A stretch of 64,000 bases of DNA from Candidatus Poseidoniaceae archaeon (lineage in GTDB: Archaea; Thermoplasmatota; Poseidoniia; Poseidoniales; Poseidoniaceae): NCBI GenBank assembly GCA_030747695.1, contig JASLKG010000006.1, positions 62,001 through 126,000 of the forward strand. The letters run 5' to 3'. Position 1 is the first letter of the stretch. Each line of letters opens with the position of its first letter. Shown piece by piece: positions 28,047-31,492 of this stretch. A model generated the notes under the pieces. That model made no database searches and was not told where the DNA came from. It was given only the letters and a program-made list of their open reading frames with translations. The position numbers were made by a program, and so were the translations under genes.

Positions 28047-29072
28047 ATGGACCTAGCCGGAGCCGCATGGATGGTTAGAGAAATTGGTCAACCAATTAGC
28101 GCCATTTATCTTTGTGAGGATGGAAGAATAATTGCTGGAGGATGGGACGGCAATCTTTCTGTGTGGGATTCGGATGGAAATAATCTATTGAGCATAGAAT
28201 GCGGCGATAGAATAGAAACAATAGCCACACTAGAGAATAGAATCATTGTAACATCCGGACTCAATTTGGTATGTATTCTTGACAAAACAATTGATTGGAA
28301 ATTCCCGCTAGAAGGCTCAGCTGATTTATTGATTATTGTAGACAAACAGATTGTGGCCACATCAAGTGTATATGATATTGAGCATGGAGATTTTATGGAA
28401 GGAGCAATTTGGAAATTTTCTTCAAACGGAGAACTAATCTCTGTTAATAGAATCGACGAACGGCCTTGGTTTGTTGCACACGAAACAAATCTTATTGTAG
28501 GTTTGGGGCGCCCACGTTGTGGGATATTAATTGATGAAAAACACTCGCTATTGCCTACAGAATCTCCTGTAACTTGTGGATATTCAAAAGACAAGGACAT
28601 ATTTTTTGGGCATGCTGATGGTTCGCTTTCCGATATTAATGGAAACATAATATGTACAGAAGACCATTCAATTGAATCAATAGATTATATGGAACAAAGA
28701 TTAGTGTTAGCACTAGATGATAACAAAATTATCTCTAAAACATTAGATGACAAATTAATGTGGTTTTCAGAAGGACCACAGATCACGTGCCACGTTTTGG
28801 GGTTTGATTTGATGCATTGGTGTGGCCGTTATAATGGGGCCATAGGACTAGTCGAAGTACGTTCTGAGAATGGAGACTTAATCGCAACTCTTGAAGACTC
28901 AAAGCCAAAAACTGCAACAGCAGATGAAAAAAGAGTCGCCATAGGATTTGAAAACGGACAAATTATGGTATGGTCTAAGGAACTATTTTCCCGTAGAAAA
29001 GATTTGAAATTAGAGTCTGAAATTCCTAGAAATTTAGAGCTTGCAGCAAAGTTACGTTCGTTACGGAAATGA
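28047..29072 (+). CDS. WD40-like beta-propeller protein
   Basis: About 341 residues from ATG 28047 (a TTG seven codons upstream is possible). The protein is made of repeating strands such as GRIIAGGWDGNLSVWDSDGNN and ends with RVAIGFENGQIMVWSKE, the pattern of WD/propeller blades. No signal peptide is seen, so it is probably cytoplasmic. It may be a scaffold. Its end lies about 90 bases upstream of the promoter-like element for the structured RNA. Confidence 0.6.
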   Translation: MDLAGAAWMVREIGQPISAIYLCEDGRIIAGGWDGNLSVWDSDGNNLLSIECGDRIETIATLENRIIVTSGLNLVCILDKTIDWKFPLEGSADLLIIVDKQIVATSSVYDIEHGDFMEGAIWKFSSNGELISVNRIDERPWFVAHETNLIVGLGRPRCGILIDEKHSLLPTESPVTCGYSKDKDIFFGHADGSLSDINGNIICTEDHSIESIDYMEQRLVLALDDNKIISKTLDDKLMWFSEGPQITCHVLGFDLMHWCGRYNGAIGLVEVRSENGDLIATLEDSKPKTATADEKRVAIGFENGQIMVWSKELFSRRKDLKLESEIPRNLELAAKLRSLRK

Positions 29073-29160
29073 ATGTTATTTTTTGTCAAAACCCTCCAGT
29101 GGAATCATTGGAAATAAGGCTCGCAACCCCTCGTTTCCAATGGAAAATAGGCCAAAAAAA

Positions 29161-29176
29161 CCGAAACATTTATGGG
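29161..29176 (+). promoter_or_regulatory. Candidate BRE/TATA promoter of the structured RNA
   Basis: CCGAAA followed by CATTTATGG resembles a BRE plus TATA element. It would place transcription start near 29195-29200, just ahead of the first stem-loops of the RNA. Assigned by eye. Confidence 0.4.
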
Positions 29177-29194
29177 CTTCGCGGACCCACGTGA

Positions 29195-29850
29195 ATAGTG
29201 CCGCTCCTCCGGGGAGTGGTGGAGGGCCTTTCGAGGCCTTCTGGGACCCTTGCCAACCGGCCCGCTCAAACCGAGCGAAGAGTTGGTCACAATTCCTGGA
29301 GACAGGAAGAGTGAAGCGATCTAAGGGATTCAATTTCTTCGGGAATTGAAAGCCTTAACGCTCACAGGAGAATTTGGAGCTTCGGCAATAAATTCGCCGT
29401 ACCTTAGGGTGCGGCACAGGTAGGGACTCAATTTCGGTTGAGTATGAGCCAATGACTGTGCAAACTGCCGGGAAGGTGTGGTAACAGGACTTGTCCGACC
29501 TCCACATATCGAACGGCACAGTACCAGTTTACTGGTGCTAGATAGAAACCGGATTATTGTAAATCTTCGGATTTAGAGTAATAACGGACTGTCAGGGACA
29601 GTTTGAGAATGTCTTCGGACAGACTCACTCTGGACCAAAGGGTGTGGAAAACGAGCTTCGGCTAACCGCAACACCCACCTGGCCGTCGGGAAGAAGGCGC
29701 ATTCAGGAATGAGTGCGTCAACGATCTTGTACGGATTCTTCGGAATCCGAATGAGTGAAGACGACTCGGCAGCCGTCAGCGGAGGCTGGCAGGGGGGCGG
29801 AAATCCTACCCGGATGAAACCCCCCTGCCAGTTCTCCCATCCTGCTTACA
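29195..29850 (+). ncRNA. Long structured RNA, possibly divergent RNase P RNA
   Basis: This is the only gap of over 300 bases; no plausible protein is coded. The plus strand folds into at least nine stems, six capped by C(UUCG)G tetraloops (loops at 29338, 29381, 29566, 29614, 29657 and 29739). Examples: 8 bp around 29222-29241, 9 bp at 29329-29350, a long hairpin at 29549-29587, and a 12-bp stem pairing 29786-29797 with 29820-29831. The stable UUCG loops exist only on this strand, which fixes its direction. The segment 29470-29545 (GGTGTGGTAACAG, GCACAGTA, a CCAG/CTGG hairpin, TAGATAG) resembles the specificity-domain core of RNase P RNA. I could not find the P4 pairing, so that identity is unproven. 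Ends are approximate. Confidence 0.55.
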
Positions 29851-29935
29851 CAGGTAATTCGTCCCCAGTCTGTTTCGTTTATGACTGTTGAGTACGCGAA
29901 TACCACTAATATGCCGTTTTCTCAGACTCCCAAAA

Positions 29936-31492
29936 TTATCCAACCATATTTTTTGGTTGCACCCATAAATCAAACTCTTTTTCGCTAACATATCCTAATT
30001 CTAAGGCCGATACGCGCAAAGTTATGCCTTTGAGGTGTGCGTTTTTTGCAATTTTTGCAGCTTTATCATATCCTATGTGATTATTTAATGCAGTAACTAA
30101 CATTAATGAATTTTCTAAGTGATTATTAATTACTTCATTATTCGCAATCAAACCTTCAATACATTTGGTCCGAAATGAATCCATAGAATCAGATAATATT
30201 CTTGCACTGTGTAAAAAATTGTAAATGATCATTGGTTTGAAAACATTTAATTCAAAATTACCCTGGCTTCCTCCTATCGTTATTGCAACATGATTTCCCA
30301 TGACTTGGCAACAAACCATTGTCAAAGCTTCAGATTGTGTGGGATTAACCTTTCCAGGCATTATTGAAGAGCCCGGCTCATTTGCTGGAAGTGACAATTC
30401 ACCTAATCCACATCGCGGCCCTGAACCTAGCCACCGAACATCATTTGCAATTTTCATGAGACTCACTGCAAGTGTATTTAGGGTGCCACTTGCAGAAACA
30501 ACCGCATCATGGGCTGCCAATTGAGAAAATTTATTTGGAGCAGTTACAAAATTAATCCCCGTCTTTTTTGCAATTTCGATAGAAACCATTTCTGCAAACT
30601 CAGGATGTGTATTCAACCCAGTGCCTACGGCAGTACCGCCTAATGCCAACTCCAATAAATCAGTCAATGCAAATTCTATGCGTTGAATATTACCTTCTAA
30701 TTGAGAAACCCATCCACTTGCTTCTTGACCAAGTGTTAATGGAACCGCATCCATCAAATGAGTTCTTCCAATCTTTACAATTTCTTTCCATTCATCAGAT
30801 TTAGATTGGAGCGCATCTCTTAATTTAACGAGACTTGGAATAAGTTTGTGAGTTAATATTTCAACAGAAGCAATATGCATTGCTGTAGGAAACGTATCAT
30901 TTGAGGATTGGCCGCGATTTACGTGGTCATTTGGATGGACAGGCGATTTAGTTCCAAGAACGCCTCCTCCAAGTTCTATACCTCTATTAGCAATTACTTC
31001 GTTTGTATTCATATTTGATTGTGTGCCAGAACCAGTCTGCCAAATTTTTAGTGGAAAATGTTCATCTAAATTGCCGTTAATAACCTCTTCAGCAGCAGCA
31101 ACAATCAAGTCAGCAATAGGTTTTTCCAATTGCCCAAGGTTATGGTTAACCTTTGCAGAAGCCTGTTTTAGTATTCCAAATGCGCGAATAATTTCTCTTG
31201 GCATTTTGTCGGCACCAATGTTGAAATTAATTATGGATCTTGCAGTTTGACAACCATAGTACCGATCATTAGGCACTTCCAATTCCCCCATAGTATCAAT
31301 TTCAATTCTCGTCCCACCTTTGATTTTTTTAGGCTTACTTTCTTCAATCTGGCGCTTCACAGCTTCTACAATCCATTGACTTCTATTTTTTGAAACACCC
31401 TCGATTTCTCTCATCGAATTTAAGATTTCAGAAGGAAATGAAACACTGACAATTCTTGCATCGTGCGTTTTGGGCCTACCCTTGCTTGACAT
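29936..31492 (-). CDS. fumC: Class II fumarate hydratase with N-terminal ribbon-helix-helix domain
   Basis: Interconverts fumarate and malate. From residue ~60 on it is a normal Fum[36 protein letters not shown]-like segment (here [13 protein letters not shown]), [17 protein letters not shown], and the [11 protein letters not shown] signature at ~374-384. The first ~50 residues ([15 protein letters not shown], then a helix to SRSQW-like [14 protein letters not shown]) have the strand-helix-helix pattern of a CopG/Arc-type RHH DNA-binding domain. No start codon lies between the two parts that would preserve the TRIEID segment, so the fusion looks genuine. Confidence 0.9.

Follow-up and report, generated by a model that had tools for sequence, protein, structure and literature searches.

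A large structured non-coding RNA of Poseidoniales archaea, new to Rfam and probably transcribed from its own promoter

This study describes a large structured RNA found between a WD40-like gene and fumC in a 64-kb stretch of a Candidatus Poseidoniaceae genome (contig JASLKG010000006.1, positions 62,001 to 126,000; hereafter the window). The RNA is folded, carries compensatory base changes, is non-coding and mostly single-copy, occupies one chromosomal place and belongs to no Rfam family. That it represents an autonomous structured non-coding RNA new to Rfam is considered almost certain, and the fuller statement, of a Poseidoniales-specific, autonomously transcribed RNA serving as a scaffold in trans, is reasonably probable; the scaffold mechanism taken singly (an RNP or a self-assembling particle), which is drawn from analogy, is put forward tentatively. 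The initial annotation had offered two readings of the locus, a divergent RNase P RNA or an undescribed long archaeal RNA, and the second is the one supported by covariation, a conserved promoter, a conserved position, an order-wide distribution and the lack of an Rfam match.

The RNA gene lies downstream of the co-oriented WD40-like gene and before the convergent fumC, in a gap of 863 nt that is the largest internal one in the window without an ORF of at least 110 aa; it had been called the only gap, which goes too far, given two other internal gaps of 287 and 354 nt and the cut window end. The RNA stretch has a GC content of 51%, compared with 40% in the window as a whole. C(UUCG)G occurs in it six times (CTTCGG at 29337, 29380, 29565, 29613, 29656 and 29738, reaching 29743), always on the + strand; the expected number is 16 for both strands of the whole 64-kb window and about 0.08 for the RNA stretch. 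These motifs are joined by a 12-bp GC stem (CUGGCAGGGGGG/CCCCCCUGCCAG) in which 29786-29797 pairs with 29820-29831, and the minimum free energy of 29170-29860 is -301.8 compared with -230.9 +/- 6.6 for shuffled sequences (z = -10.8), so that the hairpins, the stem and the strong fold first noted on this strand are all present as described. The boundaries initially given, 29195 to 29850, fit at the 5' end, which follows the TATA box at the proper distance, and not at the 3' end, since the alignment of same-genus homologues shows conserved sequence continuing to about 29895 (Table 1). The neighbouring fumC ORF (29936-31492, - strand) has an N-terminal extension of about 65 aa that reads like a ribbon-helix-helix domain; a Pfam search gave no match there, and the extension could alternatively reflect a wrong start codon call.

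Table 1. Features of the RNA gene and its upstream region (positions in the window).
Feature	Position	Strand	Sequence or remarks
Inverted repeat, operator/UAS-like	29109..29139	+	TGGAAA-N19-TTTCCA; upstream of promoter
Archaeal BRE/TATA box	29163..29174	+	GAAACATTTATG, BRE-like GAAA; conserved in relatives
Large structured ncRNA	29195..29895	+	start (+/-3) estimated by distance to the TATA box, 3' end estimated by extent of conservation
P1, 5' hairpin	29200..29220	+	GCCGCUCC..GGAGUGGU; most conserved signature of the RNA
P2, second hairpin	29221..29242	+	GGAGGGCCU-UUCG-AGGCCUUCU; MFE fold
Closing helix, 5' strand	29243..29252	+	GGGACCCUUG; pairs with 3' strand in relatives
P3 hairpin domain	29253..29286	+	CCAAC..GUUGG, conserved GCUC-AAACC-GAGC; alignment, MFE
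Variable arm region	29287..29680	+	UUCG-capped hairpins, ACGGAAACCG/AAACGGAC modules; alignments
3' domain helix Pa	29681..29774	+	GGCCGUCGGG / CUCGGCAGCC; 10 pairs; most species share a constant C-A mismatch
3' domain hairpin Pb	29696..29719	+	GNRA-capped in most relatives
3' domain hairpin Pc	29732..29749	+	CGGAUUC-UUCG-GAAUCCG; 4 of 5 counted pairs changed on both sides
Terminal hairpin Pd	29781..29837	+	GGAG..CUCC base, 12-bp GC stem, apical AUCC-NACCC-GGAU-GAAA conserved
3' tail	29861..29892	+	GUCCCCAG ... UUAUGACUGUUGAG; conserved, contains 3' strand of closing helix

The candidate promoter noted at the outset is kept in relatives, with the pattern GAAA-N-RTTTAT found in nearly all distinct homologues about 34 nt before the TGCCGC of P1, at near-constant spacing, and with the TATA box of the window lying some 26 nt from the proposed 5' end at 29195. 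Farther upstream, TGGAA..TTTCC begins 88-99 nt 5' of TGCCGC in 74 of the 87 distinct homologues, drawn from both the Poseidoniaceae, the family of the window, and the Thalassarchaeaceae (the background rate is 3% of random 170-nt stretches), and the exact TGGAAA/TTTCCA inverted repeat occurs a single time in the window. Taken together, the conserved TATA box and upstream inverted repeat argue against a 3' UTR and for a unit that is transcribed independently and under regulation. TFB and TBP would be expected to transcribe the RNA as its own unit from about 29195, and a dimeric regulator may read the TGGAAA/TTTCCA pair.

Compensatory changes among homologues, which the initial annotation had named as one of the checks on its reading, exceed both shuffled and slid controls, and the locus is on this evidence a structured non-coding RNA. 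Within the genus of the window, the 3' domain has 15 pairs (55 cells) changed on both sides and 95.5% of cells paired, giving a covariation score of 0.216 versus 0.124 +/- 0.007 for shuffled alignments, with none of 500 shuffles reaching it, and a maximum of 0.088 for slid ones. The Thalassarchaeaceae have 15 double-changed pairs in the 3' domain and 14 in the 5' domain, far above slid controls; these figures come from family-wise alignments, which were used because a mixed-family MAFFT alignment misplaces the stem of the 3' hairpin. RNAalifold gave -181 for 11 genus members compared with -77 +/- 6 after column shuffling (z -16.7). Protein coding was considered and rejected, as 122 of 132 indels are not multiples of three and no conserved frame was seen.

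The architecture can be followed from the 5' end. In the Thalassarchaeaceae the P1 helix is 98% paired, with 2 double-changed pairs, and the helix equivalent to P2 also covaries. A long-range helix then appears to close the molecule, its strands being GGGACCCUUG/UAAGGGUCCU in the window genus, GGGCCACAAA/UUUGUGGUCC in genus g12, GGGCCA/UGGCCC in g18 and AGGCCCC/GGGGCCU in g15. Across three types of 5' strand, the 3' strand of the same clade is always the best partner of its own type; taken one by one, however, the helices are often short, with no more than 37 of 79 scoring above the 95th percentile obtained from shuffled 3' tails, and closure therefore counts as supported but unproven. For the species of the window, GUCCC(CAG) at 29861-29868 is the probable partner, in a weaker pairing (GGGAC/GUCCC) than that of relatives. 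Between P3 and the 3' domain, whole arms are inserted or missing in other species, and by such insertion the length from P1 to Pd, the 3' hairpin, ranges from 482 to 1247 nt across homologues. The 3' domain is more constant: Pa and Pb each have 5 pairs changed on both sides, Pb being 93% paired, while in Pd the segments GCGGAG and CUCCCA are invariant in both families and the stem covaries at 7 of 8 pairs in the Thalassarchaeaceae. The RNA also contains highly conserved segments that are unpaired. Two rearranged forms were seen among the homologues. One locus (L046, about 1150-1770) holds several near-identical tandem modules, AACCGGACGCAAGGAAGGGGAAGGAAGC, within the RNA, which suggests arm growth in the manner of a repeat, and members of the Thalassarchaeaceae genus g15 (L039:1497 and 1798, L128, L140, L141 and others) have two copies of the terminal hairpin, in what appears to be a duplication of about 300 nt at the 3' end.

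For the genus of the window, a nucleotide search returned 22 homologues of full length, the window copy among them; in other genera it returned pieces. The order WD40-RNA-fumC, with the WD40-like gene upstream on the same strand and fumC convergent, recurs in both families, the same slot being occupied in another Poseidoniaceae genus (L024) and, with little sequence identity, in the Thalassarchaeaceae (L025, L026). When the 3' flank of fumC was inspected in 27 further genomes, the same kind of RNA was found in the Thalassarchaeaceae genera examined; the WD40 gene and fumC are close neighbours in Poseidoniaceae genera g3, g5 and g6, and other DNA fills the slot in g8 and g10. Models of the 3' domain (R1) and 5' domain (R2), both trained on Thalassarchaeaceae alone, matched the window at 29759-29842 (E = 0.02) and 29196-29313 (E = 0.0022), and other Poseidoniaceae at the syntenic place with E-values to 0.001 and down to 1e-8, respectively. 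A combined 5' model built from both families (R3), for which the g1 matches are not independent and those in g7, g19, g21 and g22 are new, matched 155 of 340 Poseidoniia genomes. These belong to g1, g2 and g7 of the Poseidoniaceae, with one further weak match in g10, and to g12 to g22 of the Thalassarchaeaceae. Outside the Poseidoniaceae it matched 127 of 169 genomes of the class, many being incomplete MAGs. Homologues, for the most part in this slot, are present in nearly every sampled Thalassarchaeaceae (MGIIb) genus and in three Poseidoniaceae (MGIIa) genera. An RNA kept through the larger share of one main family of the order and some of the other probably does an important job, and the lack of a confident match in 8 of the 11 sampled Poseidoniaceae genera indicates that it is not essential for all.

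When the whole phylum was searched with R1 and R3, two chance-level matches and nothing credible turned up beyond the order. The exact 5' hairpin pattern had 77 matches in GTDB, 71 of them in MGII archaea; five of the other six were dismissed as chance-like, and the sixth is a contig of an 'Acidimicrobiaceae' MAG (L176; PBPU01000093.1, Acidimicrobiaceae RS349) that carries the RNA in full together with the WD40 gene and was probably misbinned from an MGII archaeon. Copy number is usually one per genome. Two matches on separate contigs were seen in each of five genomes (G048, G378, G522, G569 and G588), which may reflect genuine second copies or strain mixtures. As to the neighbours, the WD40 protein was discounted as a partner of the RNA, its gene being present also in Poseidoniaceae genera without the RNA, and the tree of this protein is too poorly resolved for counting losses. 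In Poseidoniaceae genus g7 (L107, L113) the WD40 gene and the RNA are kept and no fumC lies within about 1.1 kb downstream, which indicates that the RNA is not tied to fumC.

These arrangements bear on a possible role in cis, in which the RNA would be a structured 3' UTR of the WD40 gene or a two-way terminator or insulator between the convergent WD40 and fumC genes. Such a role would fit a conserved position just 3' of a co-oriented gene and ahead of a convergent one, but the stretch separating the WD40 stop codon from the RNA holds a conserved TATA box and inverted repeat, the two genes nearly adjoin in Poseidoniaceae genera lacking the RNA (L033, L035), g7 does without a nearby fumC, and both the size and the conservation of the RNA are far too great for a terminator. 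Position and promoter thus disfavour a cis element, and it is judged unlikely.

The relation to known RNA families was addressed with the 4227 models of Rfam 15, which include those of OLE, GOLLD and ROOL. In the window, cmscan found no family at gathering score, and at a relaxed threshold (E <= 10) the region 29050-30000 gave no sensible family, RNaseP_arch and RNaseP_bact included; relaxed matches to mir-1246, mir-2755 and RT-13 were far below their gathering scores and were set aside as chance. Twelve homologous loci from both families likewise had no Rfam match, and nothing sensible at E <= 5 or 10. The RNase P and SRP models suggested for checking the locus thus all stayed silent there: RNaseP_arch (RF00373) did not reach its gathering score or produce a match even at E <= 10, and Archaea_SRP (RF01857) gave no covariance-model match. 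Both genes are found on contigs of this genome other than that of the window, as a complete RNase P RNA (G000:C2:27742-28037, 217 bits, E = 1e-65, spanning positions 1-288 of the model) and an SRP RNA of full length (RF01857; G000:C4:151626-151929, 110.7 bits).

The idea of a divergent RNase P RNA arose from a UUCG-rich RNA of several hundred bases on a single strand of a marine archaeon, with a resemblance to the specificity core that was seen by eye only. It was rejected given the silence of the RNase P models here and in relatives of the other family, and the complete, normal gene already in the genome; a second RNase P would moreover require the P4/CR-I/CR-V core, of which none was found. 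Either form of RNase P, divergent or second, is regarded as extremely improbable. Group I and group II introns also had no Rfam match at the locus, and the site is intergenic and conserved. A mobile or selfish intron-like element between genes might be imagined from the arms of repeated modules and the partial duplications in some genera (L039, L046), yet across two families most genomes have the RNA at a single conserved site, and it is usually single-copy and has no adjoining reverse transcriptase, homing or other endonuclease gene, making this very unlikely. A ribozyme, whether catalytic by itself or as the core of an RNP, is given little probability: the size, the closed multi-helix architecture and the conserved unpaired core nucleotides would suit it, whereas no known catalytic core was recognized, Rfam ribozyme families including the introns gave no match, and an exon or splice context is absent.

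The size of the RNA, its closed architecture, the conservation of unpaired segments and the capacity of its arms to expand point instead to a structural RNA acting in trans. It could be speculated that the transcript folds into a particle, with two 5' hairpins followed by the long-range helix closing a multi-armed body, that the conserved 3' domain and the conserved unpaired segments form the working core, and that the UUCG- and GNRA-capped arms, variably present, act as peripheral struts. Such a particle would most likely serve as an RNP scaffold or as a self-assembling RNA particle, in the manner of OLE, GOLLD and ROOL. The high conservation of the unpaired segments could also be explained if the RNA were a trans-acting regulator or sponge that base-pairs through them, and the operator-like inverted repeat at the promoter, suggestive of regulated expression, would agree with this; at 500-1250 nt, the elaborate multi-domain structure is unusual for such RNAs, and pairing regulation is thought rather doubtful.

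A virus record offers a further lead. The IMG/VR record IMGVR_UViG_3300007514_000005 (L205) is a 72 kb tailed virus with genes for a tape measure protein, a groEL-type chaperonin and a clamp loader. Its positions 1525-1660 carry AGGTTTAT, then 22 nt, then TTTGCCGCTCCTGTGGAGTGGTGTG, the same promoter spacing and P1, with an R3 score of 33.7 bits. From near 2463 runs another non-coding stretch with promoter-like and RNA-like features. The 3' domain was not found in this record and the downstream fold is not exceptional. Nine other IMG/VR records have the promoter-plus-TTTGCCGCT pattern only, with no model match; a phage record collection gave no DNA match, and the proteins of L205 yielded no host assignment. 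The viral promoter-plus-P1 module is accordingly a lead and not a result.

On balance, the RNA probably represents a class of ornate non-coding RNA, large (0.5-1.25 kb) and not described before, that is ancestral and specific to the Poseidoniales, an archaeal counterpart of OLE, GOLLD and ROOL, which was lost in several Poseidoniaceae genera and whose promoter and first hairpin a tailed virus has acquired or mimicked. Large ornate non-coding RNAs are, to our knowledge, rare and nearly all bacterial, as are those with recent cryo-EM structures. The Poseidoniales (MGII) are among the most abundant archaea of the surface ocean, and this reading, if true, would give a globally important uncultured lineage a new major RNA. 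Within the Poseidoniaceae, the split between genera that have the RNA and genera that lack it offers a natural contrast, by which its function could be tested through comparative genomics and metatranscriptomics.

Among open-licence literature, one report was found that may concern the same RNA. A differential RNA-seq study of the Red Sea, published in 2016, described Tan1 (Thalassoarchaea ncRNA 1) alongside the RNase P and SRP RNAs as an abundant, structured MGII RNA of 229 nt, with five Thalassoarchaea homologues of 75-79% identity (PMC5069720). As described there, Tan1 resembles the present RNA in being a structured MGII non-coding RNA without assigned function; it differs, in a comparison by description and not by sequence, in length (229 nt versus 480-1250 nt), and the main text of that study gives no family-wide or Poseidoniaceae homologues (PMC5069720). 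Tan1 may be a fragment of the Poseidoniales RNA or a different RNA; the Poseidoniales RNA may also explain the 'highly abundant' MGII non-coding RNA signal of the Red Sea.

The archaeal RNase P RNA (RF00373), with its conserved core, and the archaeal SRP RNA (RF01857) are likewise structured, and neither matches the Poseidoniales RNA. A closer likeness in kind is seen in OLE, which is large and ornate, has conserved unpaired segments and has an incompletely known function (PMC9723947, PMC11332333). OLE is an RNA of about 600 nt that forms a membrane RNP in Bacillota, whereas the Poseidoniales RNA is archaeal and lacks an Rfam match; no OLE-associated genes were recognized beside it. GOLLD and ROOL are bacterial and often phage- or plasmid-borne. 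They too are very large structured non-coding RNAs with arms, for which homo-oligomers have been seen by cryo-EM (PMC12286853), while the Poseidoniales RNA has no Rfam match and holds one chromosomal place in an archaeal order. The best reading is that the Poseidoniales RNA is comparable with, and unrelated to, the bacterial OLE, GOLLD and ROOL RNAs.
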